A program made the position numbers and the translations under genes. The notes under the pieces are model-generated. The model saw only the letters and a program-made list of their open reading frames with translations. It had not been told where the DNA came from and did not search any database. Shown in pieces: positions 10,986 through 61,250 of a DNA stretch of 64,000 nt. The stretch comes from Jeotgalicoccus saudimassiliensis. GTDB lineage: Bacteria; Bacillota; Bacilli; Staphylococcales; Salinicoccaceae. The stretch's first letter is position 1; each line of letters starts with the position of its first letter. The stretch lies in contig NZ_CCSE01000001.1 in the NCBI RefSeq assembly GCF_000756715.1, forward strand, positions 496,001 through 560,000, given 5' to 3'.

Positions 10986-11108
10986 GTCACTCAAATTGTT
11001 TTGACTGACAGTGTGAAAAAGACATAGTCACTCAAATGGAATTGAGTGACAGTATAGAATCGACATTGTCACTCAAGTTAGTTTGACTGACAATGTTGAA
11101 TGCTTGTA
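10986..11108 (+). repeat. 41-bp tandem array 1 (3 units) after NERD copy 1
   Basis: Three consecutive units begin GTCACTCAA at 10986, 11027 and 11068, a period of exactly 41 bp with no gaps. The units have diverged (for example TTGACTGACAGTG, TTGAGTGACAGTA and TTGACTGACAATG), but each forms a dyad GTCACTCAA...TTGA(C/G)TGAC. The first unit extends into a 15-bp stem, TTTTTCACACTGTCA with TGACAGTGTGAAAAA. The array starts 52 bp after the gene's stop codon. Confidence 0.9.
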
Positions 11109-11154
11109 CAGGAAGTTTATCGATTTCCAGAATTAATATAGTGAAAACTGCTAA

Positions 11155-11212
11155 ATGTCGACACCTCACTGCACCCCGCAATCAATCCCTCTCACATCCC
11201 GCCCCAAAATCA
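11155..11212 (+). other. C-rich, G-poor tail after array 1
   Basis: About 57 bp strongly biased to C over G on the plus strand (for example CACTGCACCCCGC and CATCCCGCCCC), followed by AT-rich sequence before rbgA. No gene or clear stem-loop was seen. Similar C-rich stretches follow the other two arrays. Confidence 0.5.
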
Positions 11213-11295
11213 TGATAAAATATAAGGGGAATATACCAACCATTCAACTAACCAGCAAAACTAAAATAATTTACAGAAGAAAGGGGCAACCAAAG

Positions 11296-12153
11296 ATGTC
11301 TATTAACTGGTTCCCGGGACATATGGCGAAGGCTCGCCGTCAAATTGAAGAAAGCCTGAAAAAAGTGGATGTTGTAATCGAGATTCTCGATGCGCGTATT
11401 CCGTACGCGTCGAAAAACCCGATGCTAGATCATGTAATCGGCGACAAACCGAGAGTTGTCGTCCTGAACAAAAAAGATATGGCAAACGGCAAGGAGACAG
11501 ACCGCTGGATTGCACGCCTGAAAGCTGAAGGTGTTTATCCTGTAGCGCTGAACGGCAAGGAGCCGAATGTTCTGAAGAAAATAGAGAATACGGTAGTCGA
11601 AGCGACGAGGGAAATTTTCGAGCGCATGGAGCGTAAAGGTATTAATCCGCGCGCAATCAGAGCGATGATTGTCGGCATTCCTAACGTAGGGAAATCGACG
11701 ATTATTAACAATATTGCAAAGCGTAAAGTTGCGAAAACAGGTAACACACCGGGTGTTACGAAGGCCCAGCAATGGATTAAAGCGGGAACGAAAATGGAAC
11801 TGCTCGATACGCCGGGTGTGCTGTGGCCGAAATTTGAAGACGCGTCTATCGGTCAGAAACTGTCGCTTACCGGAGCAATCAAGGATAACGTCGTAAACCT
11901 CGACGATATCGCGATATATGCACTTAAATTCATGCAGACACACCATCTCGAAGGGCTGAACAAATTTTACAACATCAATATCGACGCGAACACGGAAATC
12001 GTGGAAATCTTTGATGCGATCGGCCGGTCGCGCGGTTTCAAGATGAGCGGCAACGAAATCGACTACGAGCGCGTCACAGAAAGAGTAATCTACGATACAC
12101 GTGATGCGAAAATCGGTAAGCTGACATTCGATTTTGCACAGGAAGAAGAATAA
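11296..12153 (+). CDS. rbgA: Ribosome biogenesis GTPase RbgA (YlqF)
   Basis: Circularly permuted GTPase needed for a late step of 50S assembly. The 285-residue protein begins [14 protein letters not shown], typical of RbgA. The G motifs appear in permuted order: NKKDM (G4), then GIPNVGKST (G1), then DTPGVLWP (G3), followed by a C-terminal helical domain. I chose ATG 11296, which follows AAGGGG and gives the known N terminus. An in-frame ATG 141 bp upstream falls in the C-rich tail and would add an unrelated extension. rnhB follows after 4 bp and appears co-transcribed. Confidence 0.95.
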
Positions 12154-12157
12154 TTAT

Positions 12158-12916
12158 ATGAAGATAAGCGATATAAAACTCGAAATCAACAAGATAAAAA
12201 CCATCGAAGATTTAACGGCCTCTCCATTTAACGAAGACGAGCGCAAAGGTGTACAGAGCGCGCTTAAATCAAGGGCGCGCCTCCTCGAAAAAGAAAGGGC
12301 ACTGCTCGAACACTACGAAACGATGCTGCAGCATGAAAACAAACATCAGGGTGTCATCATTGCCGGCATCGATGAGGCGGGCCGCGGACCGCTCGCGGGC
12401 GAAGTGGTTGCGGCCGCTGTAGTACTGCCGGAAGACCGTAAAATCATCGGCCTCGACGACTCGAAAAAAGTCCCGCTCGCTAAACGCCTCGCACTTCGTG
12501 AAGAGATAATGGAGCATGCGGCGTACGGTATCGGCATCGTCACGGCTGAAGAAATCGACACGCACAACATTTATAACGCAACGAAAATTGCGATGCAGCG
12601 TGCGCTCGATAATTTACCTGTGTCACCCGGACATTTACTGATCGACGCGATGACCCTCGACAACGGTATTCCGCAGACGTCGCTGATTAAAGGGGATGCT
12701 GTGTCCAATTCAATTGCGGCGGCTTCGATTATTGCGAAGACGACACGGGATATGATGATGGAAAAGTACGATACTGAATATCCGGAATACGGCTTTGGAA
12801 ATCATAAAGGATACGGCACGAAAGCGCATCTTGAAGCACTTGAAAAATACGGTGCGGCACCGATTCACAGAAAGACATTTGAACCGGTTAAAAGTATGTT
12901 CGGTATGCAGTTTTAA
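12158..12916 (+). CDS. rnhB: Ribonuclease HII
   Basis: Removes RNA primers and single ribonucleotides from RNA-DNA hybrids. The 252-residue protein has an N-terminal extension of about 65 residues before the catalytic core, as in Bacillus RNase HII. IAGIDEAGRGPLAGE gives metal ligands D72 and E73, and LLIDAMTLD gives D163. The later AASIIAKTTRD helix and GYGTKAH are also typical. ATG 12158 fits better than the TTG at 12134 because GGAAGAAG precedes it at a normal distance. It forms a two-gene unit with rbgA, as in Bacillus. Confidence 0.96.
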   Translation: MKISDIKLEINKIKTIEDLTASPFNEDERKGVQSALKSRARLLEKERALLEHYETMLQHENKHQGVIIAGIDEAGRGPLAGEVVAAAVVLPEDRKIIGLDDSKKVPLAKRLALREEIMEHAAYGIGIVTAEEIDTHNIYNATKIAMQRALDNLPVSPGHLLIDAMTLDNGIPQTSLIKGDAVSNSIAAASIIAKTTRDMMMEKYDTEYPEYGFGNHKGYGTKAHLEALEKYGAAPIHRKTFEPVKSMFGMQF

Positions 12917-13064
12917 GTAATATTATTCACAATCTTTATGCTCATAAAACAGTGAAAAACATGATAATAGTGCGTATTCGAACTATATTCTTTATAACTT
13001 GTGAAATACTTTTCAAACTTTCTCAAAATAACAATAATTTGTTTGAATAGTTACCACTTACACG

Positions 13065-13093
13065 TTTACAATCAGGTAACTGTTTCCTATAAT
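13065..13093 (+). promoter_or_regulatory. Promoter of sucCD
   Basis: TTTACA (13065-13070), 17-bp spacer and consensus TATAAT (13088-13093), 42 bp before the sucC start. The 218-bp gap holding it is AT-rich and shows no gene. Confidence 0.8.
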
Positions 13094-13134
13094 TAGGAAT
13101 GTAAGCTTTATTAAAAAGTCTTAGGAGGAAAATC

Positions 13135-14304
13135 ATGAATATCCATGAGTATCAGGGAAAAGAAATTTTTCGCTCAATGGGTGTAAACGTACCTAAAGGT
13201 AACGTTGCTCTTACACCAGAAGAAGCAGTTGAAGTAGCAAAAACACTTGATTCAGATGTCTACGTTGTCAAAGCTCAAATCCACGCAGGTGGCCGTGGGA
13301 AAGCAGGCGGCGTTAAGATAGCAAAATCTGTCGATGAGGTTAAAGAATACGCTGAAGAATTATTAGGCAAAGTATTAGTAACTCATCAGAACGGTCCGGA
13401 CGGGACTGAAATCAAACGTCTTCTTATTGAAGAAGGGTGCGATATCGACAGCGAATACTACTTAGGTTTCGTAATTGACCGCGCGACGAACCGCGTTACA
13501 TTAATGGGTTCTGAAGAAGGCGGGACAGAAATCGAAGAAGTGGCAGAAGCAACTCCTGAAAAGATTTTTAAAGAAGTTATTGATCCGGTTGTAGGTCTTC
13601 TGCCGTTCCAGGCTAAGAGACTGGCATTCAACATCAACATTCCAACAGCATCGGTAAACAAAGCTGCTAAATTAATGCTTGCTTTATATGATGTATTCAT
13701 GGAAAAAGATGCAGCAATTATGGAAATTAACCCGCTTGTAACTACAGGTGCAGGTGAAGTTATCGCACTTGATGCGAAAGTTAACTTCGATGCTAACGCT
13801 CTTTTCAGAAACAAAGATGTCGTTGAGTTACGCGACTTCGATGAAGAAGATGAAAAAGAGATCGAAGCATCTAAACACGATTTAGCGTATATCGCTTTAG
13901 AAGGTAATATCGGCTGTATGGTTAACGGTGCCGGACTTGCAATGGCAACGATGGATACTATTAACCACTTCGGCGGAAAACCTGCTAACTTCCTTGACGT
14001 AGGGGGCGGCGCGACTGCTGAGAAAGTTACTGAGGCATTCAAGCTTATTTTAAGCGACAAAGCTGTTGAAGGTATCTTTGTAAATATTTTCGGCGGAATC
14101 ATGAAGTGTGACGTTATTGCTGAAGGTGTAGTAGAAGCAGTTAATAACGTAGGACTTGAAATTCCACTGGTTGTTCGTTTAGAAGGTACGAACGTAGAAG
14201 CTGGTAAGAAAATTCTCGCAGATTCAGGTCTTGCAATCACACCGGCAAGCACAATGGCTGAAGGTGCTCAGAAGATCATCGCTGCTGTAAACGAAAATAA
14301 ATAA
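13135..14304 (+). CDS. sucC: Succinyl-CoA synthetase, beta subunit
   Basis: With SucD it converts succinyl-CoA to succinate in the citric acid cycle and makes a nucleoside triphosphate. The 389-residue protein has the ATP-grasp fold: [16 protein letters not shown] in the nucleotide-binding half, MEINPLV as the metal-binding strand, and the C-terminal CoA-ligase domain with [11 protein letters not shown] and [10 protein letters not shown]. Length is normal. A strong AGGAGG ribosome site and a near-consensus promoter lie upstream. sucD follows 17 bp later. Confidence 0.97.
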
Positions 14305-14321
14305 TAACGGAGGAATATATT

Positions 14322-15230
14322 GTGGCTGTATTTGTAGATAAGAATACTAAAGTTATGGTACAGGGTATCACGGGTTCAACAGCACTATTCCACACGAAGC
14401 AGATGCTTGAGTACGGTACTCAGATCGTTGCTGGTGTGACACCTGGTAAAGGCGGACAGGAAGTTGAAGGCGTACCTGTATTTAACACTGTAGAAGAAGC
14501 TAAAAAAGAAACTGGCGCTACTGTATCAGTAGTATACGTGCCGGCTCCATTCGCAGCAGATTCAATTATGGAAGCTGCTGACTCGGAACTTGATCTGGTA
14601 ATTTGTATTACAGAGCATATCCCGGTACTCGACATGGTTAAAGTAGTACGTTACCTGGAAGGTAAAAACACGCGTCTGATTGGACCGAACTGTCCTGGTG
14701 TTATTACTGCCGACGAAACTAAAATCGGTATTATGCCTGGATATATCCACAAAAAAGGACACGTTGGTGTCGTATCACGTTCAGGGACGTTAACTTATGA
14801 AGCAGTTCATCAGTTAACTCAGGAAGGTGTCGGCCAGACAACTGCTGTCGGTATCGGCGGAGACCCTGTTAACGGAACAAACTTTATCGATGTATTAAAA
14901 GAATTCAACGAAGACCCTGAAACATACGCTGTAGTAATGATCGGGGAAATCGGCGGTACTGCTGAGGAAGAAGCTGCAGAGTGGGTTCGTGATAACATGA
15001 CTAAACCTGTAGTCGGCTTCATCGGCGGACAAACTGCACCTCCAGGGAAACGTATGGGCCATGCCGGTGCGATTATCTCAGGCGGTAAAGGTACTGCAGA
15101 CGAGAAAATCCGTATCATGAACGAATGCGGAATTGAAACAGCTGCTACACCATCTGAAATCGGTGAAACGCTGATCAGCCGTATTAAGAAAGAAGACGGA
15201 CTTTACGAAAAATGTCTGACTGTAAAATAA
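14322..15230 (+). CDS. sucD: Succinyl-CoA synthetase, alpha subunit
   Basis: Alpha subunit that binds CoA and carries the phosphohistidine intermediate. The 302-residue protein has the CoA-binding Rossmann region near the start ([25 protein letters not shown]) and the active histidine H247 in [15 protein letters not shown]. It starts with GTG at 14322 after GGAGGAATATATT. It is the second gene of the sucCD operon and ends before a strong terminator. Confidence 0.97.
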
Positions 15231-15258
15231 ATTTAATATAACTCGCTTAAGTGAGTGG

Positions 15259-15297
15259 AAAAGACGGTAATCCTGACGGATTATCGTCTTTTTTTGT
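15259..15297 (+). terminator. Intrinsic terminator of sucCD
   Basis: Stem of about 15 bp (15259-15273 with 15278-15292, one G-T pair), loop TGAC, then a T run. A smaller ACTCGCTTAAGTGAGT dyad precedes it at 15241-15256. Confidence 0.9.
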
Positions 15298-15387
15298 CTT
15301 TTACTGGAAGTTTTTGTCGGTAAAATGAAATCTGATTTCTCCCGGAAACTCATATAATAGAAGTAATACGATTACGGAGTGATGAGA

Positions 15388-16191
15388 ATGGATTTACTGC
15401 TTTTGAGTCATGCAGGTGTAACGTCAAAAGAATATTTGACACTCGTTAATAACGGCTGGATTTCACCGGAACTGAAACGGAAACTCAAAGTCGCGGAAAC
15501 ACTCGACAGAGCTGAAATTCTGGCTGTTCTGGAACGGGAAAACATAGGCTATATCACGCATAACCACAGGCTTTATCCGTCATTATTAAAAGAAATTTAT
15601 GATTTTCCCTACATATTATATTATCGTGGAAATCCATCGCTGCTTACATTAAAGATGCTCGGGGTAGTCGGGAGCCGTAAAGCGACGGATTATACGACGA
15701 AATCACTGGAACACCTCTTGCCGTCTTTGGAAAATATTGCTATTATATCAGGACTTGCGTACGGTGCTGATGAAGCAGCTCACAGGATAGCAGTTAAAAA
15801 CGGACTGCACACAATCGGTGTGCTCGCATTCGGGCATAATACGCACTATCCGAAAACGACGGCGGATATTCGAAATACGATGGAAAAAACACATTTAACA
15901 ATCAGTGAATATCCGCCGGATACGCCGATTCAGAAGTGGCAGTTTGTTGCACGGAACAGAATTATTGCGGGCTGTGCGAGAGGTGTGCTGGTCACTGAAG
16001 CGGAAGAAAAAAGCGGGAGTTTAATTACTCTGGAAATGGCACTCGATGATAACCGGAGTGTATACTGCCTGCCGGGAAACATTACATCAGCCCTGTCGAA
16101 AGGAACGAATTTACGTATTAAGGAAGGCGCTGAAGCAGTTACTGAATCAGCAGATATCCAGCGTGATTTCGATGAAAACGGGCAGCTGTGA
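15388..16191 (+). CDS. dprA: DNA processing protein DprA
   Basis: Loads RecA on incoming single-stranded DNA in natural transformation. The 267-residue protein is of the short Firmicutes type. After a helical N-terminal part it carries the Rossmann-like DprA core: GVVGSRKATDY, IISGLAYGADEAAH, ISEYPPDTPIQKW, ARNRIIAGCARGVLVTEA and SGSLITLEMA. There is no C-terminal winged helix. I chose ATG 15388 since GGAG lies 8 bp before it; a GTG and an ATG a few codons upstream overlap or touch that site. A TATAAT at 15353-15358 may be its -10 box. Confidence 0.94.
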   Translation: MDLLLLSHAGVTSKEYLTLVNNGWISPELKRKLKVAETLDRAEILAVLERENIGYITHNHRLYPSLLKEIYDFPYILYYRGNPSLLTLKMLGVVGSRKATDYTTKSLEHLLPSLENIAIISGLAYGADEAAHRIAVKNGLHTIGVLAFGHNTHYPKTTADIRNTMEKTHLTISEYPPDTPIQKWQFVARNRIIAGCARGVLVTEAEEKSGSLITLEMALDDNRSVYCLPGNITSALSKGTNLRIKEGAEAVTESADIQRDFDENGQL

Positions 16192-16213
16192 AATTTTTAT
16201 AAGTCGATTTTTA

Positions 16214-16243
16214 TTGACAAAGTAAAATTTTACTGTGTATCAT
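16214..16243 (+). promoter_or_regulatory. Promoter of topA with internal palindrome
   Basis: TTGACA (16214-16219), 18-bp spacer and TATCAT (16238-16243). The spacer contains a perfect 14-bp palindrome, AGTAAAATTTTACT (16221-16234), a position where a bound repressor would block RNA polymerase. No regulator was identified. Confidence 0.6.
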
Positions 16244-16284
16244 TTGGACTTGAATAGATTAAAAGCAAATTAGGAGGCAGCAGA

Positions 16285-18348: not shown

Positions 18349-18351
18349 TTT

Positions 18352-19650: not shown

Positions 19651-19655
19651 CGTTG

Positions 19656-20183: not shown

Positions 20184-20199
20184 AGTGAGCGTGAATTAA

Positions 20200-21579
20200 A
20201 TGCCAAACAATAATCTTTCTCCGAGAGAAATTACAGCACGGCTGGACGAAAGCATTGTCGGACAGCAGGAAGCAAAACGAAAAGTCGCAATTGCGATGCG
20301 GAACCGCTACAGAAGAATGCTGCTCGATGATGAACTTAAAGAGGAAGTCATTCCAAAAAACATTTTAATGATCGGTCCAACCGGTGTCGGTAAGACAGAA
20401 ATAGCGAGGCGAATCGCTAAAATTACAGGCAGTCCCTATACGAAAGTCGAAGCGACGAAGTATACGGAAGTCGGCTATGTCGGACGCGATGTTGAATCGA
20501 TGGTCAGAGACCTTGTGGACAATGCGGTGCGCATGGTTAAAGAAACTAAGAAAAAAGAAGTAGCCGACGATGCAGTGGAATTAGCGAATGAACGACTCAC
20601 CGGGCTTCTCGCACCGGGACGTAAAAAACAAAAACAGACAAGTACGAATCCTTTTGAAATGCTGATGAATCAGCAAAACCGGGATGAAGAGCTTGAAGAA
20701 ATAGATGACACGGTCAGAATGAAGCGCCGCGACATCAAAGCGAAACTGCTTGCCGGACAGCTCGAAGATGAAAAGGTGACGATCGAAGTTGCTGAAACTT
20801 CAAATCAGCTTGGCATGATGATGCCGGGTATGGATAATAACGGTATGGGAGACATGCTGCAGAACTTAATGCCGAAGAAAACCCACAAGCGTACAATGTC
20901 AGTTAAAAAAGCACGTCAGTACTTAATCGATGAAGAAGCTGAAAAGCTGATCGACCTCGATAATGTAAACGACGAAGCTGTTGAACTGGCAGAGACGACA
21001 GGTATTATTTTCATCGACGAAATCGATAAGATTGCAAAAGGCAGCCAGAACTCGGGCGATGTTTCGAGAGAAGGTGTGCAGCGCGACATTCTGCCGATTG
21101 TTGAAGGTTCCACAGTGCAGACGAAATACGGTTCGATTAAAACGGATTATATTTTGTTTATCGGTGCGGGGGCGTTCCACGTTGCCAAGCCGAGCGATTT
21201 AATTCCGGAACTGCAGGGGCGATTCCCGCTCCGGGTTGAGCTGAACAAGCTGACGACGGATGATTTCGAACGTATTTTAAAAGAACCGAAAAACTCACTG
21301 CTTCAGCAGTACGAGGCACTGCTGAAAACAGAAGACGTATCCGTTTCATTTACCGATGATGCAATCAGGGCACTTGCTGAAATTGCATATAAAGTAAACT
21401 CGTCAAACGACGATATCGGTGCACGGCGTCTCCACACGATTCTGGAAACGCTGCTTGAAGAGCTGCTTTACGAAGCCAGCAATATGCAGGGTGCGCACGT
21501 TGAGATTACGAAACAGTACGTCGATTCAAAACTAAACCACATTTCCACAGATAAAGACTTAAGCGAATTTATTTTATAA
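20200..21579 (+). CDS. hslU: HslU ATPase (ClpY)
   Basis: AAA+ unfoldase that feeds substrates to HslV. The 459-residue protein has Walker A GPTGVGKT at 59-66, a pore-loop region [14 protein letters not shown], an inserted I domain of mixed charge (about residues 105-240), Walker [13 protein letters not shown], a sensor region [25 protein letters not shown], and the HslU C terminus ending DLSEFIL that docks into HslV. Length is normal. It is the third gene of the xerC-hslV-hslU-codY operon. Confidence 0.97.
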
Positions 21580-21599
21580 TTTAACAGGAGTGAAATATT

Positions 21600-22370
21600 A
21601 TGCCAACTTTATTACAGAAAACACGTGAGATTAACAATTTAATTCAGGGCAGTTCAAATATTAAGGTAGACTTTGAGGAAGTAGCGGACAAATTAAGCCG
21701 CATTATCGAATGTAATACATTTATCGTTTCTAAAAGAGGTAAATTACTTGGAATCGGTGTCGTTCAGACAATCGAAAACGAGCGTATCGTTGATATGCTT
21801 GATAACAGACAGTTCCCGGAGTATTACGTAAACCAGATTATGCGCATTACTGAAACGCGTGAAAACATCGCGTTTGAAGATGACCTGACAATCTTCCCTG
21901 CAGAAGACCCGTACCAGGATTCAGAAACATGCATCGTGCCGATTTACGGCGGCGGCAACCGATTAGGTACCTTAGTACTTGGACGCAGAGAAAATGAATT
22001 CTCAGAAGATGATCTGGTACTTGCCGAGTACGCGGGCACAGTTGTCGGCATGGAAATTCTGCGTGAGAAGAACGAAGAAGTTGAAAAGAAAGCGCGTGAC
22101 AAAGCGAGCATCGCGATGGCAATCCGTTCGCTGTCATATTCAGAGCGTGAAGCAATCGAACATATCTTTGACGAGCTTGATGCAGACGAAGGGCTTCTTG
22201 TTGCATCTAAAGTTGCAGACCGTGTAGGTATTACGCGTTCAGTTATCGTTAACGCATTGCGCAAACTTGAAAGTGCCGGTGTTATCGAGTCCCGTTCACT
22301 CGGTATGAAAGGGACATTTATCAAAGTTAAAAAAGAAGACTTCCTACCGGAATTAAGGAAAGATAACTAA
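21600..22370 (+). CDS. codY: GTP- and branched-chain amino acid-sensing repressor CodY
   Basis: Global repressor of nutrient-limitation genes in low-GC Gram-positives, activated by isoleucine or valine and GTP. The 256-residue protein has an N-terminal GAF domain ([14 protein letters not shown], then [18 protein letters not shown]) and a C-terminal winged helix with the near-invariant [20 protein letters not shown] and [10 protein letters not shown]. It is the last gene of the xerC operon, the standard place in Staphylococcaceae. The rpsB promoter begins 2 bp after its stop codon. Confidence 0.97.
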
Positions 22371-22372
22371 GG

Positions 22373-22401
22373 TTGCACAGATATTTTAAATATGCTATAG
22401 T
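22373..22401 (+). promoter_or_regulatory. Promoter of rpsB
   Basis: TTGCAC (22373-22378), 17-bp spacer and TATAGT (22396-22401) with a TGC extension just before the -10. It starts 2 bp after the codY stop. Confidence 0.8.
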
Positions 22402-22407
22402 ATTAAA

Positions 22408-22500
22408 TGGTCAAAAGACCAAATACACACAGCAGAGTAAGGGATTAACCGGTGCCTTTAAACAGGTGGTTATTCAGCACGATGCTGGAGGTATAAACCA
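22408..22500 (+). ncRNA. Structured leader of rpsB
   Basis: The roughly 110-nt leader has three simple stems: TGGTC-AAAA-GACCA near 22408-22421, AACC...GGTT around the middle, and CAGCA-CGA-TGCTG near 22477-22489. Autoregulation by S2 is plausible because ribosomal leaders in this group often bind the product, but I cannot match a named family. Confidence 0.4.
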
Positions 22501-22518
22501 ATTAGGAGGAAACAAATC

Positions 22519-23286
22519 ATGGCAGTAATCACTATGAAACAATTGCTTGAAGCAGGTGTACACTTCGGACACCAGACACGTCGCTGGAACCCTAAGATGA
22601 GCAGATACATCTTCACAGAGCGTAACGGCATCTACATTATCGACTTACAGAAAACAGTTAAGAAAGTTGCAGAAGCTTACGACTTCGTTAAGTCAGTTTC
22701 TGAAGAAGGCGGACAAGTTCTATTTGTCGGTACTAAAAAGCAGGCACAGGACGCTATCAAAGAAGAAGCAGAACGTGCAGGTCAGCTTTACATTAACCAG
22801 CGCTGGTTAGGCGGTATCTTAACTAACTACCAGACTATCAACAAGCGTATCAAGAGAATTTCTGAAATCGAAAAAATGGAAGCTGACGGCGTATTCGACG
22901 TACTTCCTAAAAAAGAAGTTGTAGAATTACGTAAAGAGTATGCACGCTTAAACAAATTCTTAGGCGGTATCCGCAACATGAAGAAAATGCCTAGCGCTAT
23001 TTTCATCGTTGACCCTCGTAAAGAGCGCAATGCAATTGCAGAAGCTAAAAAACTAGGAATTCCAATCGTAGCAATGGTTGACACTAACTGTGATCCGGAT
23101 GAAATTGACTACGTAATCCCGGCTAACGACGACGCTATCCGCGCGGTTAGACTTATGACTAGCAAAATGGCAGACGCTGTTTTAGAAGGTCAGCGTGGTA
23201 TTTCTGATGAAGAAGTTGCAGCTGAACAAAACATCGACTTAAAAGAAGAAGATGCAGAAGCTGAAACTAAAGAAGAAAACGCGTAA
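22519..23286 (+). CDS. rpsB: 30S ribosomal protein S2
   Basis: Small-subunit protein S2, bound late to the 30S head-body junction. The 255-residue protein has the family motifs [33 protein letters not shown] and [19 protein letters not shown], plus an acidic tail. A strong AGGAGG site precedes the ATG. It has its own promoter and structured leader. A hairpin terminator lies between rpsB and tsf, so tsf may be made partly by readthrough, a common arrangement for this pair. Confidence 0.97.
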
Positions 23287-24240: not shown

Positions 24241-24249
24241 ATTAATTTT

Positions 24250-42684: not shown

Positions 42685-42954
42685 ATGGCAATTTCACAAG
42701 AAAGAAAAACAGAACTAATCGAAGAATACCGCGTACACGAAACTGATACTGGGTCACCAGAAGTTCAAATCGCTGTATTAACTGCAGAAATCAACACGTT
42801 AAACGACCACTTACGCACGCACAAGAAAGACCACCACTCAAGAAGAGGTCTTCTTAAAATGGTAGGTCGCCGTAAGCACCTGCTTACTTACCTGCGTAAC
42901 AAAGACGTTGTAAGATACCGCGACTTAATCGCTAAACTTGGTCTTCGTCGTTAA
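42685..42954 (+). CDS. rpsO: 30S ribosomal protein S15
   Basis: Primary 16S rRNA binding protein of the 30S central domain. The 89-residue protein shows the full S15 pattern: [54 protein letters not shown] and [13 protein letters not shown]. Strong TAGGAGG ribosome site, own promoter and probable regulatory leader. It is followed by a terminator and then by the second NERD-family gene, which separates it from its usual neighbour pnp. Confidence 0.97.
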
Positions 42955-43096: not shown

Positions 43097-43204
43097 GTAA
43101 AAAGCATCCCGGTTTTGCTATTTTTGTTTTAAAGTAACTTTTTTAAAAGAGAATCGCGGTTTTCGCCTATATATAGGGTAGAGGGAACTTTTTATATAAG
43201 GAGG
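43097..43204 (+). promoter_or_regulatory. Conserved leader of NERD copy 2
   Basis: This segment is shared, at matching spacing, with the region before NERD copy 3. It contains GTTTTGCTATTTTTG, AAAGTAACTTTTTTAAAAG and the perfect palindrome CCTATATATAGG (43166-43177), whose centre could also serve as a -10 box. The palindrome ends 35 bp before the start codon. Operator, promoter or RNA element cannot be told apart from one genome. Confidence 0.65.
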
Positions 43205-43212: not shown

Positions 43213-44193
43213 ATGTATTTAAACGACAGAAATACGACACCTGAGCTCCTGCATTACAGAACACTCGAAAGACGGCTTGTATTCGATAAGGGGAATTTGA
43301 GGATTTATGAGAACGGCTTTCTCGGAGAGTGTTTATACGATAAACTCTTTGACGAAGTCGGGCATGATAATCTTTATATTTTCCGTGACGTTTATCTTAC
43401 TGCAGGAAAAAGCGGCGCACAGTATGACAGTATTATTATTTCCGGCGACAATGTAACGGTAAATGAAATTAAAAATTACAGCGGAGAGTACTCTTTTACA
43501 GACGGGCGGCTCGTTAAAAATAATGAAGTTGTGCCGGACAATCCGTTTACCCAGGTCGACCGTGCAGTAAGCAAACTGTACCGCATATTCAGGGGATTGA
43601 GCGGGAGAGTGCCTGTTGAAATAACCGGAAAAGTCATATTCCCAAACGATGACTTCAGACTGTATTCCGAAGATCACTCCATCTGGAAGAATGTCGTCAT
43701 CCGTATGGACATGAAGAAATACTTCAGACAGTTTAAAGGCACATACAACACTGACCGTGCTGACCGGATCATCTCACTCATCCGGGCGAACATGACTCCA
43801 AATCCGTATTTTAACGGCAGTCCGGATACGGCCCGGGTCAAAAAAGGACTGTATTGCGGAGAGTGCGGCGGATTTGAGCTGAAGAAAGGGAGATTCCAGT
43901 TAACATGTACAAAGTGCGGTACAATAGAAAGCAATGAAACACATCTGCTTCGAGCCATGAGTGATCATAAATTTTTATATTACAATCAGCCGATGACCAA
44001 ACGGTCATTACTGGAGCTTATAGATTGCGAGCTTCACAATATTACAGTATTGCGTGCACTTCAGAAACATTGTGATGTAACGAAGAAGGGAAGGCAAACC
44101 TCATATCTGTTTAAATACTACGATTATGATGATGCGATTAAAAACGTGCGGAAATTCCAAAGATATAAAGATAAATCCGGAGAATTTATTTAG
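43213..44193 (+). CDS. NERD-domain, zinc-ribbon protein, family copy 2
   Basis: Second member of the family, 326 residues like copy 1, and closer to copy 3. NERD domain: GECLYDKLFDE at about 38-48, AQYDSIIIS (D72) and VNEIKNYSG (E85, K87). The zinc ribbon has CGEC and CTKC with SNETHLLRAM after it. The C-terminal block has MTKRSLLELIDCEL, TVLRALQKHC and LFKYYDYDDAI, a pattern that could be a winged helix. If active, the protein would be a metal-dependent nuclease with DNA-binding parts, in the cytoplasm; no signal peptide or membrane helix is seen. ATG 43213 lies 8 bp after GGAGG. It sits between the rpsO terminator and pnp, with array 2 starting 15 bp after its stop. No partner gene such as a methylase or antitoxin adjoins it. 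Confidence 0.82.
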   Translation: MYLNDRNTTPELLHYRTLERRLVFDKGNLRIYENGFLGECLYDKLFDEVGHDNLYIFRDVYLTAGKSGAQYDSIIISGDNVTVNEIKNYSGEYSFTDGRLVKNNEVVPDNPFTQVDRAVSKLYRIFRGLSGRVPVEITGKVIFPNDDFRLYSEDHSIWKNVVIRMDMKKYFRQFKGTYNTDRADRIISLIRANMTPNPYFNGSPDTARVKKGLYCGECGGFELKKGRFQLTCTKCGTIESNETHLLRAMSDHKFLYYNQPMTKRSLLELIDCELHNITVLRALQKHCDVTKKGRQTSYLFKYYDYDDAIKNVRKFQRYKDKSGEFI

Positions 44194-44208
44194 AAGCAGT
44201 GATTGGAC

Positions 44209-44408
44209 GGCTCCAAAGTAACAATGAGCGCTCTTCATAGTAACGGAGCGGCCCCAAAGTAACAATGAGCGCTCTTCATAGTAACGGAGCGACCCCAAAG
44301 TAACAATGAGCGCTCTTCATAGTAACGGAGCGGCCCCAAAGTAACAATGAGCGCTCTTCATAGTAACGGAGCGGCCCCAAAGTAACAATGAGCGCTCTTC
44401 ATTGTTAC
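44209..44408 (+). repeat. 41-bp tandem array 2 (5 units) after NERD copy 2
   Basis: Units start at 44209, 44250, 44291, 44332 and 44373, period exactly 41 bp. The unit runs GGCCCCAAAGTAACAATG, then AGCGCTCTTCATAGTAAC and GGAGC. Units are nearly identical apart from the first few bases, so expansion looks recent. The last unit differs: its end reads CATTGTTAC, so GTAACAATGA and TCATTGTTAC form a perfect 10-bp stem with a 7-nt loop. All units contain the palindrome GAGCGCTC. Confidence 0.95.
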
Positions 44409-44482: not shown

Positions 44483-44557
44483 CTTTTTATATATATATTT
44501 TACAACAAAAATGATATGATAATTATAAGTGCCAAAGCTAAGGAGAGAAAACAAATT

Positions 44558-46678
44558 ATGAATGAACAGACTAAACAAGTGTTTGAAACTGAGTGGGGCG
44601 GTCGCCCGCTTATTATAGAGTACGGGGAAATGGCTAAGCAGGCGAGTGGTTCTGTACTTGTACGTTACGGCGATACAGTAGTACTCTCTACAGCAACAGC
44701 GTCGAAAGAACCGAAGAACATCGGTTTCTTCCCGTTAACAGTAGCTTACGAAGAGAAGATGTACGCAGCAGGGAAAGTCCCGGGCGGCTTTAACAAGCGT
44801 GAAGGGCGTCCGAGTGAAGATGCTACGCTGACGAGCCGTTTAATCGACAGACCGATTCGTCCGTTATTCCCGGACGGTTACCGTCACGATGTACAGGTAA
44901 TGTCGATGGTACTATCTGTCGACAATGATGCTTCTCCGCAAATGGCAGCAATGCTCGGATCTTCAATGGCGCTAAGCGTATCGGATATTCCGTTTGACGG
45001 ACCGATTGCTGGTGTTACTGTAGGTTTAATCGACGGGGAGTTTATCATCAACCCGACAACTGAACAGCTCGAACAGTCGGAGCTTGAACTTCAGGTTGCG
45101 GGTACTTACGATGCGGTAAACATGGTTGAAGCAGCGGCACAGGAAGTTCCTGAAGATATTATGTTACAGGCGATTCTTTTCGGTCACAAAAACATTCAGG
45201 AGCTTGTTCAGTTCCAGAACGAAATTATTGAACAGATCAATCCTCTCAAACGTGAAGTGACAATCGAACAGATTAACGAAGAGTACCGCGCACAGATTAC
45301 AGCACAGGCTGAAGCGATGGATCTTTACGCTAAGATTCAGGAAAATGATAAACAGACACGCGAAGAAAATATTACTGCGGTGAAGCAGAGCATTATCGAC
45401 AGTATCGACGAAGATGCTGAGGACTACGACTTATTAGTTGCGGATGCATCAACAGTATTCGACGATCTTGTTAAAGCTGAAGTGCGCCGTCTGATTACTG
45501 ACGATAAAGTACGTCCTGACGGCCGTGAGCCTGCGGAAATCCGTCCGTTAAATTCACAGGTTGGATTACTGCCGCGTACACACGGTTCTGCGTTATTTAC
45601 ACGCGGGCAGACTCAGGCGTTATCTGTAGCAACACTCGGCGGTCTTGGTGAACACCAGATTATCGACGGGCTCGGCGTTGAAGAGAACAAACGCTACATG
45701 CACCACTATAACTTCCCGAACTTCTCAGTCGGTGAAACTGGTCCGATCCGCGGACCGGGACGCCGCGAAATCGGTCACGGTGCATTAGGAGAACGTGCAT
45801 TACTGCAGGTTATTCCAAACGAAACGGAATTCCCGTACACAATCCGTGTCGTATCTGAAGTACTTGAATCAAACGGTTCATCTTCACAGGCATCAATCTG
45901 CGGATCGACACTTGCGTTAATGGATGCTGGTGTACCGATTAAAGCACCGGTTGCAGGTATCGCAATGGGTCTTGTTAAAAAAGGTGAGAATTACACAATT
46001 CTTTCCGACATCCAGGGCATGGAAGATGCGCTTGGAGACATGGACTTTAAAGTAGCAGGTACACCGAAAGGTATTACTGCAATTCAGATGGACATTAAAA
46101 TCGACGGCCTGAGCAAATCTATTCTGGAGGAAGCTCTGGAACAGGCGCGCATCGGACGTCTGCACATTTTAGAAAATATGCTTGCAACAATCGACACGCC
46201 GCGCAGCGAATTATCAGCACATGCGCCGAAAGTTGAAGTAATGCATATTAAACCTGCGAAGATCCGCGACGTTATCGGACCGGGTGGTAAGAAAATCAAC
46301 GAAATTATCGACGAAACAGGCGTTAAACTGGACATCGAACAGGATGGTACTGTGTACATCGGTTCAAGCGACCAGGATGCCATCAAAGCAGCGCGTAAAA
46401 TTATCGAAGATATTACACGCGAAGCGGAAGTCGGCGAAATCTACGAAGGTGAAGTACGCCGTATCGAGAAGTTCGGTGCGTTCGTACAGTTGTTCCCGGG
46501 CAAAGATGCGCTCGTACACATTTCACAGCTCGACACATCACGCGTCAACAAAGTTGAGGATATCGTCAAAGAAGGCGATAAAATGCGTGTTAAAGTAACT
46601 GAAATCGACAGACAGGGCCGTGTGAATGCATCGCGCAAAGTACTGCTTGAAGCAGCAAAAGAGAACAAAGAAGACTAA
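44558..46678 (+). CDS. pnp: Polynucleotide phosphorylase
   Basis: Phosphorolytic 3'-5' exoribonuclease and degradosome component with RNase Y and RNase J, both also encoded here. The 706-residue protein has two RNase PH domains (first: [19 protein letters not shown]; second: [15 protein letters not shown] and [19 protein letters not shown]), a KH domain ([16 protein letters not shown]) and an S1 domain ([20 protein letters not shown]). ATG 44558 follows AAGGAGA; the frame is open 14 codons further upstream without a ribosome site. rnjB follows 37 bp downstream. Confidence 0.96.
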
Positions 46679-54986: not shown

Positions 54987-55002
54987 TTGGAGATAACAAA
55001 CT

Positions 55003-55878: not shown

Positions 55879-55884
55879 CAATAA

Positions 55885-56469: not shown

Positions 56470-56498
56470 AAAACTGCGGTGACTTCACTGCAGTTTTT
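56469..56498 (+). terminator. Intrinsic terminator of pgsA
   Basis: Outer stem AAAAACTGC (56469-56477) with GCAGTTTTT (56490-56498) and inner GTGA/TCAC, ending in a T run. Confidence 0.88.
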
Positions 56499-56568
56499 AT
56501 TGTTTTGGCGGTTAACTTTACGGTTATAGCAATACTGTCCGCAATTATTAAATTTATGTTTTTAAAAG

Positions 56569-56608
56569 CGAACATATATTCGCTTTTTTATTTTGTGCAT
56601 GATATAAT
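56569..56608 (+). promoter_or_regulatory. recA promoter with LexA (SOS) box
   Basis: CGAACATATATTCG (56569-56582) matches the Gram-positive LexA site CGAAC-N4-GTTCG with one change in the right half. It overlaps the likely -35 region, with -10 TATAAT at 56603-56608. This position fits repression of recA by LexA until DNA damage. Confidence 0.75.
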
Positions 56609-56638
56609 AATTTATGAGATTACGACTGGAGGTACATT

Positions 56639-57700
56639 ATGGACGAGAGACATAAAGCGATAGATACAGTTATTAAAAACATGGAAAAGTCATTTGGTAA
56701 AGGTGCCGTTATGAAGCTTGGGGACGATGCGGGACGCAAAGTTAAAACCACTTCATCGGGATCAGTTACATTAGATAGAGCATTAGGGGTAGGCGGTTAT
56801 CCGCAGGGCCGTATTATAGAAATCTATGGACCGGAATCATCAGGTAAAACGACAGTATCACTGCATGCCATTGCAGAAGTGCAAAAAAACGGCGGAATCT
56901 GTGCGTTCATCGATGCGGAGCACGCACTCGATCCCGAATACGCTAAAAAACTAGGTGTCGACATCGACAACCTTTATATTTCACAGCCGGATACAGGTGA
57001 GCAGGGACTTGAAATTACAGAAGCATTCGTACGAAGCGGCGCGGTTGATATGGTCGTTGTCGATTCGGTTGCAGCACTGACACCAAGAGCTGAAATCGAA
57101 GGTGAAATGGGAGACTCTCACATGGGTCTGCAGGCGCGTTTAATGTCACAGGCATTAAGAAAGCTGTCAGGTGCCATTTCGAAAAGTAATACGACAGCAA
57201 TTTTCATTAACCAGGTCCGCGAGAAAATCGGTGTAATGTTCGGTAACCCGGAAACGACAACCGGCGGACGTGCGCTTAAATTCTACAGTTCGGTACGTCT
57301 TGAAGTCCGCCGTGCGGAAAGCTTAAAAATCGGTCAGGATATCGTAGGTAACCGTACGAAGATTAAAGTAGTTAAAAACAAAGTGGCACCGCCGTTTAAA
57401 GTTGCAGAAGTGGACATTATGTACGGGGAAGGTATTTCACACACAGGTGAAGTAATCGATTTAAGTGTTGAAGAAGACATCGTTGAGAAAAGCGGTGCGT
57501 GGTATTCCTACAATGGCGAACGTCTCGGCCAGGGTAAAGAAAATGCCAAGAAGACACTGAAAGAAAATCCGGAACTGTTTGCGGAAATCGAACGCAAATT
57601 ACGTTCGTCACTCGGATTCGGCGAAGATATTCCTGAAGAAGAACAGGACGATGAAAACGACGAAGCGACGGGTTTATTTGATGAGGACGAATTAAAATAA
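56639..57700 (+). CDS. recA: Recombinase RecA
   Basis: Strand-exchange ATPase and SOS co-protease. The 353-residue protein has Walker [10 protein letters not shown] at about 64-72, [20 protein letters not shown], the L2 region [20 protein letters not shown], and an acidic C-terminal tail rich in Glu and Asp. ATG 56639 follows CTGGAGG. Preceded by a LexA-type box. It also works with DprA, encoded at 15.4 kb, during transformation. Confidence 0.98.
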
Positions 57701-57730
57701 TAATAAAAGCCTGATTTAGTCGGGCAGCTG

Positions 57731-57772
57731 AATCAAGCACCGGTATTATAAATACTCGTGCTTGATTTTCTT
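57731..57772 (+). terminator. Intrinsic terminator of recA
   Basis: Stem AATCAAGCAC (57731-57740) with GTGCTTGATT (57758-57767) and an inner GTATT/AATAC pairing, then a short T-rich run. Confidence 0.82.
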
Positions 57773-57866
57773 TATGTTTATATTTAGAATTGAATTATAT
57801 AATATTTAATTAATACTCATATTATATTTAACACACTTTAGAACCTTAGTTAGGGAGGTGTTTATT

Positions 57867-59426
57867 GTGGACTTAATAGACATTCTCTTAATCTTACTTG
57901 GTATTATTCTGGGTGTTGTTATCGGATATTTTATTGTCAATAACATATTGACTAACAAGCAGCGTCAGGCAAGGACTTCAGCTGAACATATTATAAATGA
58001 AGCGAAAAAGGAATCCGAAAACCTGAAGAAAGAAAAACTGCTCGAAGCGAAAGAAGAAAACCAAAATCTGAAAGAAGCATTCGATAAGGAAATGAATGCG
58101 GAACGCAACGACTTGAAAGCGTTTGAAAACAGATTATTGCAGCGTGAGACATCACTGGATCGTAAAAGTGAAACACTCGATAAGAAAGATGACATGCTGG
58201 AAAACAAAGAAGCTAAAATTGAAGAAAAACAGCAAATGGTAGATGCCAAGGATAACGAGATTAATGAAAAGATAAGTCAACAAGAAACAGAATTATCCCG
58301 CATCTCCGGATTGACGCGCGATGAAGCACGTCAGGAAATGTTCTCTCAGGTAGAACACGAACTGTCACACGATATGGCTGTAATGGTAAAAGAAAAGAAA
58401 GAAAAAGCGGCTCGGGAAGTAGACAAAGAAGCGCGTGAACTGCTCGCATTAACAGCGCAGCGATACGCAGCCGAATATACCAGTGAGTCTACAGTATCAG
58501 TAGTCTCACTGCCGAACGATGAAATGAAAGGCCGTATTATCGGCCGTGAAGGACGAAACATCCGAACGCTCGAAACACTGACAGGTGTCGACCTGATAAT
58601 CGATGACACACCTGAAGCAGTAATTCTGTCAGGATTTGATCCAATCAGAAGACAAATTGCGAAGAGTGCACTGGAAGCATTAGTGCAGGACGGCCGAATT
58701 CACCCCGGACGCATTGAAGAAATGGTGGACAAGGCAAGACGCAATATGGAAACTGAAATCCGTGACGCAGGTGAAGCTGCAGCGTTTGAACTCGATATTC
58801 ACAATCTTCATCCTGAGCTTGCAAAACACTTAGGTAAGATGAAATACCGCTTAAGTTACGGACAAAATGTGCTTAAGCACTCGATTGAAGTCGGTTACCT
58901 CGCAGGAATTCTTGCGAGTGAACTCGGCGAAAATGTCGCTTTAGCCCGCCGTGCAGGACTGCTGCATGACATCGGTAAAGCAATCGACCACGAAATTGAA
59001 GGCTCCCACGTAGAAATCGGAGTCGAACTCGCAACCCGTTATAAAGAACAGGATACGGTAATTAATGCGATTCAGTCACACCACGGTGATGTTGAGCCGA
59101 CAAGTGTCATTTCAATTCTCGTAGCAGCAGCAGATGCACTCTCAGCAGCCCGTCCGGGCGCCCGTCGTGAAACGCTTGAAAACTACGTTAAACGACTTGA
59201 GAGACTCGAGCATATTGCAGAAAGCTACGATGGCGTAGAAAAAACATTTGCAATTCAGGCCGGACGCGAAATCCGAGTAATGGTAAGCCCTGAAGATATC
59301 GACGACTTAAAAGCACACCGTCTTGCAAGAGACATTAAGAAACGTGTAGAAGATGAACTGCAATATCCAGGACACATAAAAGTGACAGTTGTCCGCGAGA
59401 TGAGGGCCATAGAATACGCAAAATAG
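57867..59426 (+). CDS. rny: Ribonuclease Y
   Basis: Membrane-anchored endoribonuclease that starts mRNA decay. The 519-residue protein has one N-terminal membrane helix ([20 protein letters not shown]), a long coiled coil (about 30-195), a KH domain ([17 protein letters not shown]) and an HD domain with H367-D368 ([12 protein letters not shown]). GTG 57867 is preferred because GGGAGGTG just upstream would otherwise overlap the earlier GTG at 57858, and the length then matches Bacillus RNase Y. The third NERD gene and its arrays separate it from its usual neighbour ymdB. Confidence 0.95.
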
Positions 59427-59460
59427 AAAGATCAGAGACGGAAGTCTCTGATCTTTTTTT
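59427..59460 (+). terminator. Intrinsic terminator of rny
   Basis: A 13-bp perfect stem (59427-59439 with 59444-59456), GGAA loop and T run, starting right after the stop codon. Confidence 0.94.
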
Positions 59461-59479
59461 ATTTGGTGTGGGTGTAGGG

Positions 59480-59725
59480 AAAACAGGGTTGTTGGCCCAA
59501 CGAGCGGCCGACGACGGTCCAAAACAAGGCTGTTGGCCCAACGAGCGACCGACGACGGACCAAAACGAGCGGATTGACCCTACGAGCAGCCGACGACGGT
59601 CCAAAACGAGCGGATTGGCCCAACGAGCGACCGACGACGGTCCAAAATGAGCCGATTGACCCAACGAGCGACCGACGACGGTCCAAAACAGGGCTGTTGA
59701 CCCAACGAGCAGTCGACGACGGACC
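59480..59725 (+). repeat. 41-bp tandem array 3a (6 units) upstream of NERD copy 3
   Basis: Six units of exactly 41 bp, starting at 59480, 59521, 59562, 59603, 59644 and 59685. The unit begins AAAAC, has a variable block (AGGGCTGTTG or GAGCGGATTG), then CCCAACGAGCGACCGACGAC and GGTCC or GGACC. The two variable blocks alternate in a mosaic order (types A A B B B A). The sequence is GC-rich and free of stop codons in all minus-strand frames. The TGTTGGCCC core recalls staphylococcal STAR repeats. Confidence 0.95.
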
Positions 59726-59889
59726 AACCTAGAAAGACAAAACATGCTGCCTAAACTATACAATAACCAGACAAAACGGATGAATTAAAAATATACCTAA
59801 TCTTTAATTATATAACCTGACAACCGATCCGGTATATAGTCTTGATGAATTTCTCACATACATAAAAAGGAAAAAATCAATAAACCTGT

Positions 59890-59998
59890 GTAAAAAGTAA
59901 ACCAGTTTTGCTATTTTTGTTTAAAAGTAACTTTTTTAAAAGGAATACGCCATTTCCTCCTATATATAGGGTAAGAAGTATTTTTTATAAATGGGAGG
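59890..59998 (+). promoter_or_regulatory. Conserved leader of NERD copy 3
   Basis: Near-copy of the leader before NERD copy 2: GTTTTGCTATTTTTG at 59905, AAAAGTAACTTTTTTAAAAG, and the palindrome CCTATATATAGG at 59959-59970, ending 36 bp before the chosen start. The 164 bp between array 3a and this leader are AT-rich and hold no gene. Confidence 0.65.
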
Positions 59999-60006
59999 CG
60001 ATGAAT

Positions 60007-60990
60007 TTGTTTATTAATAATCGTAAAATACCAGTTGAACTTTTATATTACAATGCGCTTTCAGCACGTACTGACTTAACCACGAGTGAAAGGTATCAAA
60101 TGGAGTCAATTAGAAAGGGATATGAAGGTGAGTGTTTATACGATAAAATATTTGATGAAACCGGACATAAGAATTTATATATTTTTAGAGATGTTTATCT
60201 GAAAATAAAAAACACAACTGCGCAGTATGACAGTATTGTGATTTCTGATGATTGTGTGACTATAAACGAGATCAAAAATTTTCAGGGTGATTTCAGATTT
60301 TCAAAAGATATGTGGTATAAAGATGAACGACTGCTTGAAGATGATGCTTTTACTCAGTTAAGAAGGGCAAAAGGAAATTTGATGAAAATAAATAAAGACT
60401 CTGATGTGCAATTTGAAGTGAAAAACGCATTAATTTTTATTAATGACGACTTCAGATTATCAAGTGAAAATGATGATATTTGGGAGAAAACAATAGTACG
60501 CAGTCATTTAAGAAAATACCTCCGCAATCTAAATAATAGTTATCGTGGTGAAAAGGCGAAGGAAATTGCTAATGTTATTAATAAATACAGAGTTAGGAAT
60601 ACATTTTTTAATGAGAGACCGGATACTTCGAGACTTCGGTTGGGGTTTTATTGCGGTGAATGTAAGAGCTTTGATTTGTCAAAATACCGTTTCCACTTTA
60701 AGTGTAATAACTGTGAAACGATAGAAACTAAAGAAACACATTTTCTTCGTGCATTAAGTGACCATAAATTTTTATTTTACAATGAACCGGTAACAAAAAA
60801 ATCTATCAGTCATCTAATAGACAACCAGCTGAGTAAAACAACATTGTTAAGATTTATGAATAAACATTGTAACCTGATAAAGAAAGGCTCGAGGTCGACT
60901 CATACTTTTAAATATTATGATTTTAACGATGCAGTAAAGACAATAACCGGTGGAAGATATAAAAATACAATTAGAAAACAGAGTGAATAA
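60007..60990 (+). CDS. NERD-domain, zinc-ribbon protein, family copy 3
   Basis: Third member, 327 residues. NERD domain: GECLYDKIFDE at 41-51, AQYDSIVIS (D75) and INEIKNFQG (E88, K90). Zinc ribbon CGEC and CNNC, followed by KETHFLRAL; the C-terminal block VTKKSISHLIDNQL, LLRFMNKHC and TFKYYDFNDAV matches the other copies. TTG 60007 is preferred: it lies 8 bp after GGAGG and lines the protein up residue by residue with copies 1 and 2, whereas ATG 60001 is only 2 bp from GGAGG. The gene is clearly more AT-rich than the core genes beside it and than its GC-rich flanking arrays, which suggests transfer from elsewhere. It lies between rny and ymdB, with 41-bp arrays of the same unit on both sides. 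Confidence 0.82.
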   Translation: MFINNRKIPVELLYYNALSARTDLTTSERYQMESIRKGYEGECLYDKIFDETGHKNLYIFRDVYLKIKNTTAQYDSIVISDDCVTINEIKNFQGDFRFSKDMWYKDERLLEDDAFTQLRRAKGNLMKINKDSDVQFEVKNALIFINDDFRLSSENDDIWEKTIVRSHLRKYLRNLNNSYRGEKAKEIANVINKYRVRNTFFNERPDTSRLRLGFYCGECKSFDLSKYRFHFKCNNCETIETKETHFLRALSDHKFLFYNEPVTKKSISHLIDNQLSKTTLLRFMNKHCNLIKKGSRSTHTFKYYDFNDAVKTITGGRYKNTIRKQSE

Positions 60991-61004
60991 AGCGGGATGG
61001 AGTT

Positions 61005-61250
61005 TGTATGGTTCGATTGGCCCAACGAGCGGCCGACGACGGACCAAAACGAGCGGATTGATCCAACGAGCGGCCGACGATGGACCAAAACAGGGCTGTT
61101 GGCCCAACGAGTGACCGACGACGGTCCAAAACAGGGCTGTTGACCCAACGAGCGGCCGACGACGGCCCAAAACAGGGCTGTTGACCCAACGAGCGGCCGA
61201 CGATGGTCCAAAACGAGCGGATTGATCCAACGAACAACCGACGACGGACC
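61005..61250 (+). repeat. 41-bp tandem array 3b (about 6 units) downstream of NERD copy 3
   Basis: The same unit, in the same direction, as array 3a. The first unit (61005-61045) is degenerate at its left side; five full units follow, starting at 61046, 61087, 61128, 61169 and 61210. Variable blocks run B B A A A B. Units end GGACC, GGTCC or GGCCC. It starts 14 bp after the stop codon of the NERD gene. Confidence 0.95.

Follow-up and report, generated by a model that had tools for sequence, protein, structure and literature searches.

Why should three genes for proteins with a NERD nuclease domain, all within 64 kb of one chromosome, each adjoin tandem repeats of the same 41-bp period and of unlike sequence? 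The stretch that raises this question, hereafter the window, covers positions 496001–560000 of the 2,191,063-bp genome of Jeotgalicoccus saudimassiliensis. Tandem Repeats Finder (TRF) and Pfam searches confirmed the three NERD genes and the 41-bp arrays that an initial annotation had described: there are four arrays with three different unit sequences and one period, and the TRF list of the window held no further array with a period of 40–62 bp. On the comparisons given below we lean, by a modest degree, towards proteins that are sequence-specific dimeric nucleases, which would assemble on helically phased arrays of palindromes and help to spread them, in an architecture like that of the RAYT/REPIN systems built with an unrelated protein.

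Pairing of NERD genes with phased arrays

In the whole genome of the window we found 12 NERD genes, 11 of which are followed by a tandem array. The period is 41 bp in eight, 42 bp in two (L003, L005) and 51 bp in one (L011), and two genes, L010 and L012 (window gene 3), carry arrays on both sides. Ten of the 11 array-linked genes form one paralogous family, nine of them being 41–62% identical to window gene 2. The twelfth, L008, is of a membrane type; it lacks an array, which rules out that every NERD gene has one, and neither zinc ribbon nor winged helix was seen in it.

Whole-genome searches covered 33 genomes of the GTDB family, 32 of which contain the NERD family (0 to 11 matches per genome, G027 being the sole one with none); for the order the figure is 60 of 157. 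Scanning named genomes yielded 49 relatives, which belong to Jeotgalicoccus, Lacicoccus and Salinicoccus and, in one case, to Alkalibacterium. The 159 related loci used below are the matches listed by these searches and not a random set; the membrane-type L008 and L186, a duplicate of L057, were dropped. A phased array (40–42, 50–52 or 61–62 bp) adjoins the gene in 123 of the 159 loci and is located downstream in 114, and an adjoining tandem repeat of any kind is present in 128. By class there are 107 adjoining arrays at 40–42 bp, 24 at 50–52 bp and 5 at 61–62 bp; ten further adjoining rows with periods of 20, 20, 21, 26, 68, 83, 83, 156, 235 and 244 bp, some of them near-multiples (e.g. 83), were kept out of the class means. 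Downstream arrays start at a median of 14 bp past the stop codon (105 arrays, the set before the last 20 loci were added). Copy number varies, and units within an array are homogeneous.

Beyond the gene-linked arrays the flanks are nearly empty: no further array was found in 267 kb around 40 Jeotgalicoccus loci (L013–L051 and L060), and four were found in 271 kb around 67 other loci, including a 42-bp repeat with 2.7 copies. Given these flanks, the proposed pairing of NERD genes and arrays is more frequent in the relatives than expected by chance. Six array-less Jeotgalicoccus loci were inspected by eye. One palindrome follows the stop codon in L019 and L041 and two in L043, degenerate copies are present at L029 and L050, and L060 has an assembly gap; some array-less loci are thus single-palindrome or decayed forms. 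The palindrome downstream of L019 is perfect, CTCCGCAATGA-N7-TCATTGCGGAG, and is perhaps a minimal or collapsed state. In J. coquinae (L222:1800-3095) a NERD gene that most resembles L003 is split over two frames and still adjoins a 42-bp array of 6.2 copies.

Features of the window are collected in Table 1. The three proteins score 37.0–44.2 bits against PF08378 (curated cut-off 22.1), and NERD is the only Pfam family above cut-off. It had been stated that every array begins just past a NERD stop codon; this is so for arrays 1, 2 and 3b, whereas array 3a starts 54 bp past the RNase Y gene and 274 bp ahead of NERD gene 3, which is thereby flanked by arrays on both sides. Upstream parts shared between paralogues were seen at 43110-43190 and 59890-59975 of the window and also upstream of L001, L003, L004, L005 and L010. 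They carry CCTATATATAG, some also TTTTGCTATTTTTGTTTWAAAGTAACTTTTTTAAAAG, as if promoter and gene had been copied jointly or had a regulator in common.

Table 1. NERD genes and repeat arrays in the window, with positions counted from its first nucleotide.
Feature	Position	Strand	Evidence	Description	Neighbouring genes
NERD gene 1	9954..10934	+	Pfam NERD E 5.4e-11; alignment A1; TTG as putative start	NERD nuclease domain, zinc ribbon, winged helix	L19 ribosomal protein gene (9246-9593; PF01245); on the other side GTPase/RNase HII genes
Array 1 (L009D)	10980..11108	+	TRF (10981-11092, 2.7 copies, 41-bp period), sequence, unit layout	three 41-bp units	
NERD gene 2	43213..44193	+	Pfam NERD E 3.1e-11; AlphaFold model, pLDDT (per-residue confidence score) 93.2		S15 gene (42685-42954) before; polynucleotide phosphorylase (PNPase, 44516-46678) after
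Array 2 (L007D)	44208..44408	+	TRF (44208-44402, 4.8 copies, 98% match), sequence, layout	five 41-bp units	
Array 3a (L012U)	59480..59727	+	TRF (6.0 copies), sequence	six 41-bp units	
NERD gene 3 (L012)	60001..60990	+	Pfam NERD E 5.3e-9; E 4.1e-9 for 60007-60990		RNase Y (57858-59426) before; YmdB (61339-62100) after
Array 3b (L012D)	61003..61252	+	TRF (61017-61252, 5.8 copies), sequence, layout	six units of the repeat family of array 3a, right after NERD gene 3	

Helical phase, palindromes and the protein domain that tracks the repeat

The constant 41-bp period of the initial annotation holds for all window arrays and gives way elsewhere to the other periods listed above, in the same genome as well as in the relatives. 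The three classes have mean periods of 41.1, 51.3 and 61.8 bp; taken as 4, 5 and 6 turns, these amount to 10.28, 10.27 and 10.30 bp per turn, close to the value for B-DNA. On a FastTree tree of 122 of the 123 phased-array loci (proteins of ≥200 aa) the period class changes 3 times against a shuffled mean of 25.4, and none of 200 shuffles was as low; the number of changes is soft because the tree has some long branches, and three classes amount to few independent events. The array period corresponds to 4, 5 or 6 helical turns and, since the class follows the tree, this number belongs to the protein clade. A periodicity score plotted against turn length was flat, and is uninformative because most arrays share one period.

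In array 2 the palindrome GTAACAATGA-N7-TCATAGTAAC (44218-44244) recurs at 41-bp steps, and the final copy (44382-44408) has perfect 10-bp arms. Arrays of this L007 type are the best-studied family. Their arms are conserved, with 93% identity between the 12 arrays from four species, compared with 42% for the 7-bp centre and 41% for the spacer; the centre length and part of the arm identity were set by the search pattern (≤2 mismatches) and are not independent findings, the spacer length is. That length is 14 bp in 69 of 70 cases. The family thus keeps length without sequence, with a spacer fixed in size and free in composition. The earlier proposal that a length or helical-phase rule outlives sequence divergence is borne out by these spacers together with the 4/5/6-turn classes and their course along the protein tree.

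Type III toxin-antitoxin systems (ToxIN) likewise combine a nuclease gene with an adjoining tandem array of family-specific repeats, where the array encodes an RNA antitoxin and lies upstream of the toxin gene. Could the NERD arrays be such an RNA device, transcribed together with the gene into hairpin RNAs, for instance as a type III antitoxin? Many units are palindromic, and the gene-linked array is downstream in 114 of the 159 loci, in several of them ahead of an apparent intrinsic terminator. The strands, however, carry no RNA signature: among 122 arrays the sense strand folds better in 55, and arm mismatches are of the G.T type in 7 cases and of the A.C type in 9. Six loci matched no Rfam family, several dispersed arrays come after an apparent terminator, and the periods are multiples of the B-DNA turn. 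The absent strand asymmetry and the lack of an Rfam match in the six loci led us to set aside an RNA hairpin or antitoxin, an explanation that we regard as very improbable; the NERD arrays differ from type III systems also in being mostly downstream, in part dispersed, and helix-quantised.

The predicted fold of the protein combines a PD-(D/E)XK domain with a winged helix, and in structure comparison the former comes near the Can2 and McrC nucleases. Catalytic residues are kept in nearly all of the 159 proteins (E39 in 154, D72 in 158, E/D85 in 158, K87 in 157, Q114 in 157). In the L006 protein, alone among the 159, the catalytic lysine is replaced by E (NEIEN where others have NEIKN), yet its genome holds 49 L006-type palindromes.

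A conserved active site in a fold of this kind, several paralogues with separate repeats, and a weak match of the NERD part to the NCBIfam model MADS6 (15.6–17.1 bits against a cut-off of 460) could also speak for defence or addiction, with a conditional nuclease that its own arrays would license or keep from doing harm, and that invading DNA or array loss would set free. This is improbable in our view: neither L011 nor any of the three window genes matched a PADLOC model at E 0.01, and the window genes lie among housekeeping genes with no neighbour in common.

To see which part of the protein goes with the repeat, we compared 95 loci whose arrays are in the 41-bp class. Similarity between units correlates with identity of the C-terminus when the NERD domain is accounted for (partial 0.137, 0 of 300 permutations as high) and hardly with the NERD domain when the C-terminus is accounted for (partial 0.051, 20 of 300 as high). 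Natural chimeras point the same way. L013 and L017 come from one genome; their NERD domains are 81% and their C-termini 47% identical, and their units, 37% alike, are unrelated (shuffled level 42%). For L004 and L024 the two identities are 46% and 72%, and the units are 76% alike. In these chimeras the repeat follows the C-terminal winged helix and not the NERD domain.

Dispersed arrays and their chromosomal sites

We found further arrays in the genome of the window when stretches spaced by hand and avoiding known NERD genes were sampled: 400 kb contained 15 arrays, i.e. 37.5 per Mb or 1.3% of bases. For fourteen of them a NERD-linked unit of the same genome matches better, by ≥2 letters, than all 43 control units, which were taken from other genera; for the fifteenth the margin is one letter. 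A joined-array search placed the L010 type at ≥13 further sites, the L002 type at ≥4 and six other families at ≥1 or 2, all lower bounds because 40 of 86 candidates were scored. Arrays are therefore confined to NERD genes within the window, as first claimed, and not genome-wide. Arrays far from NERD genes, named at the outset as evidence against the pairing, do exist, yet they belong to the same repeat families; they move the picture from pairs in cis to a system in trans and leave the pairing standing.

Other genomes gave mixed results. Of the seven arrays sampled in G003, four agree with an own unit better than with any control by ≥2 letters and two by a single letter, a 2-copy repeat being among these two; the seventh is level with a control. 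Four arrays were found in G006, and none of the three tested clearly matches either of the two units tried, a third NERD locus with a 51-bp array lying outside this test, and G022, with one NERD match, showed no array in 200 kb. The control G037, without NERD match, has four arrays at 42 or 51 bp, which are probably coding repeats because all lie inside open frames of 229–1258 codons.

Whether the palindromes depend on the cognate gene was assessed in nine Jeotgalicoccus genomes, which are related and hence not independent, with exact one-sided P values. A gene was taken as cognate from the identity of its C-terminus and from the unit next to it; raw counts partly favour gene-tracking for this reason, and the counts given here exclude the adjoining copies. 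L007-type palindromes number 31, 46, 6 and 5 in genomes with the gene and 0, 0, 0, 1 and 2 in those without (P 0.008), and L023-type palindromes 58, 27 and 11 with and 1, 0, 1, 1, 0 and 0 without (P 0.012). Dispersed palindromes thus track their cognate gene in two of four families and not clearly in the other two (see below); strict dependence on the gene is not borne out, as these two fail once adjoining copies are removed.

Might the repeats be ordinary minisatellites, made and kept by slippage and recombination, to which the NERD genes are linked by mere hitch-hiking? Variable copy number, internally homogeneous arrays and the two palindrome families without clear gene-tracking would fit. 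Slippage does not explain, however, periods quantised along the protein tree, a fixed spacer length with free spacer sequence, the tracking of the C-terminal domain or that of the cognate gene in two families, and we consider this origin very improbable.

Copies within arrays run head-to-tail in a single orientation. According to a mechanical open reading frame (ORF) finder, 11 of the 14 sampled arrays with a left-hand ORF start 62–121 bp from it, and 7 of the 13 with ORFs on both sides sit between convergent ORFs. NERD loci occupy the same site in several species, and the repeats at a site change. The site after one gene holds L007-type arrays in two species, another type in two, an L036-type array in one and a single degenerate palindrome in two, and no array or palindrome was seen by eye in two more. 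The L006 site carries gene and array in the genome of the window, the gene and one palindrome in G007, and the gene and an array interrupted by an assembly gap in G008; in J. coquinae an L007-type array is present there and the gene absent, and two genomes have an empty site. As species differ in the array family that they carry at a given site, the sites are more stable than the families that occupy them.

The density of intergenic arrays, their strict helical phase and the shared positions of NERD loci would also suit a chromosome organiser or addressing system that serves the host, in which the paralogues bind dispersed phased arrays and the nuclease domain is conditional or mostly structural. 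We hold this to be unlikely, if the most serious of the alternatives considered here: the catalytic residues are retained in 154–158 of 159 proteins, the array family at a given site varies by species, and 0 to 11 NERD matches among 33 family genomes would be odd for a core function.

An array of 51 bp at 21512-21802 of the genome of the window (L092:1512-1802; 5.7 copies, 95%) showed no good match to the NERD-linked units. A gene for a 326-aa protein lies 77 bp downstream (21879-22859, L092:1879-2859), with a weak match to PDDEXK_4 (E 5.8e-4, below cut-off) and weak PADLOC matches to PDC-S26; perhaps the same arrangement has here been built with a different nuclease family.

Known systems and the proposed mechanism

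In RAYT (TnpA-REP)/REPIN systems, as outlined in PMC3116915 and PMC8266576, a single-gene protein lies beside a cognate palindromic repeat with which it co-evolves and which forms an extragenic family of dispersed copies. The likeness suggested initially extends to the layout, with NERD genes beside a cognate, often palindromic repeat (123 of 159 loci) and extragenic dispersed copies of it (14 of 15 sampled arrays, eight families); copies track the gene, however, in two of four families only. In contrast to the HUH/Y1 tyrosine transposase of RAYT systems, the NERD protein combines a PD-(D/E)XK nuclease with a winged helix, and its arrays are head-to-tail tandems of helix-quantised period, whereas the RAYT unit is an inverted REP doublet. 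RAYT proteins are further marked by cutting single-stranded hairpins of the repeat.

STAR elements of Staphylococcaceae are intergenic tandem repeats with a shared motif and locus-specific spacers, found at different loci in each species and, according to PMC3532100 and PMC5294841, of unknown function and spread. They resemble the arrays studied here in being intergenic and in having spacers that vary by locus while the motif is common. They differ in their 14-bp GC-rich motif and spacers of 40–44 bp, and the part of PMC3532100 consulted describes no linked gene. An identity of the two was rejected: the STAR motif TNTGTTGNGGCCC matches the window once with one mismatch, outside the arrays, where 0.53 matches are expected. 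SmdA of S. aureus carries a NERD domain behind a membrane helix, and PMC9040797 calls the function of bacterial NERD domains unstudied before that work. Matched by layout alone, L008 is probably its counterpart; as noted, it differs from the array-linked proteins in lacking the array and, as far as seen, zinc ribbon and winged helix. Among the open-access matches listed, whose titles and abstract openings were available, no report of a NERD/repeat pairing was found. The findings suggest a previously undescribed kind of gene-plus-repeat system.

The mechanism that we favour runs as follows. The protein would be a sequence-specific DNA nuclease with an N-terminal NERD domain of the PD-(D/E)XK type, a zinc ribbon and a winged helix. 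A dimer would read a palindromic site of ~27 bp through its winged helices, with half-sites of ~10 bp and a centre of 7 bp in the best-studied family, and the sites would be spaced by 4, 5 or 6 whole turns as set by the protein clade. Because phased sites share one face of the DNA, we propose that bound dimers stack on their neighbours. Sites would be maintained in the flank of the gene itself and in many intergenic arrays served in trans. Cleavage of bound or replicating arrays by the nuclease would then lead to recombination that adds, homogenises and re-seeds copies, some of them at new sites, and the host may benefit.

Several observations weigh against this mechanism. Taken one by one, 31 of 57 arrays in the first-examined set are clearly palindromic (≤5 of 100 shuffles), and a stricter fixed-arm test (≤2 of 40 shuffles) finds 28 of 122. 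Array 1 of the window, whose first copy is an imperfect 36-bp palindrome (10980-11015), passes the first test with 0 of 100 shuffles; arrays 2, 3a and 3b fail it, with 10, 42 and 80 of 100 shuffles. The co-variation of repeat and C-terminal domain, which we were led to check by the initial annotation, is seen in the partial correlation and the chimeras but is weak over all pairs (rho about 0.2), owing to the rapid saturation of units, and no advantage of the C-domain is seen where one domain has an identity of 0.5–0.7. For pairs with one domain at 70–80% the mean unit identity is 0.727 in five C-high and 0.474 in 46 N-high pairs, the five not being independent, as four combine L004 or L017 with L024 or L026 and largely reflect one C-domain exchange.

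The dispersed copies pose further difficulties. The joined-array search, with 40 of 86 candidates scored, found no dispersed array for L003, L009 or L011; the 400-kb sample, however, held one of the L011 type. L006-type palindromes number 41, 3 and 20 in genomes with the gene and 0, 5, 1, 0, 0 and 20 in those without (P 0.08), and L010-type palindromes 187, 9 and 0 with and 2, 6, 0, 0, 4 and 19 without (P 0.27), and orphan copies are found in J. coquinae (5), J. psychrophilus (19) and a metagenome-assembled genome of 81% completeness (20). The missing L006-type gene was not among the extra loci read for this test. Orphan copies are possibly relics of a lost gene or of a switched specificity. 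L010-type and L023-type proteins are each other's closest match between genomes, with a C-terminal identity of about 70%, and where a genome now has an L023-type protein, its L010-type copies may be left over from an earlier specificity. Near the NERD genes of Jeotgalicoccus, moreover, dispersed arrays are depleted (none in 267 kb against 9.4 expected at 35 per Mb), which is not predicted by simple local spreading, and no insertion footprint was found, as filled and empty sites revealed no target-site duplication.

Carried further, the same data can be read as a new class of system: up to about ten parallel paralogous nucleases per chromosome with private repeat codes on exchangeable winged helices, which would form nucleoprotein lattices of whole turns (4, 5 or 6, inherited by clade). 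Each would make and maintain arrays of its own and seed them anew at docking sites conserved between genes, while families replace one another as specificities turn over. We put this fuller picture forward tentatively; judged from sequence alone it is conceivable, and we would not yet expect it to hold in every part.

The favoured mechanism would give defined DNA targets to a widespread nuclease domain that is almost unstudied in bacteria, and would offer a testable mechanism for the intergenic tandem repeats of staphylococcal relatives. With the 4/5/6-turn series, the geometry of a protein-DNA assembly is seemingly readable from the genome sequence, and with some ten parallel specificities per genome together with natural chimeras, target recognition could be decoded in the same way. 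If the protein builds the arrays, it would represent a second, unrelated solution to the task of RAYT/REPIN.

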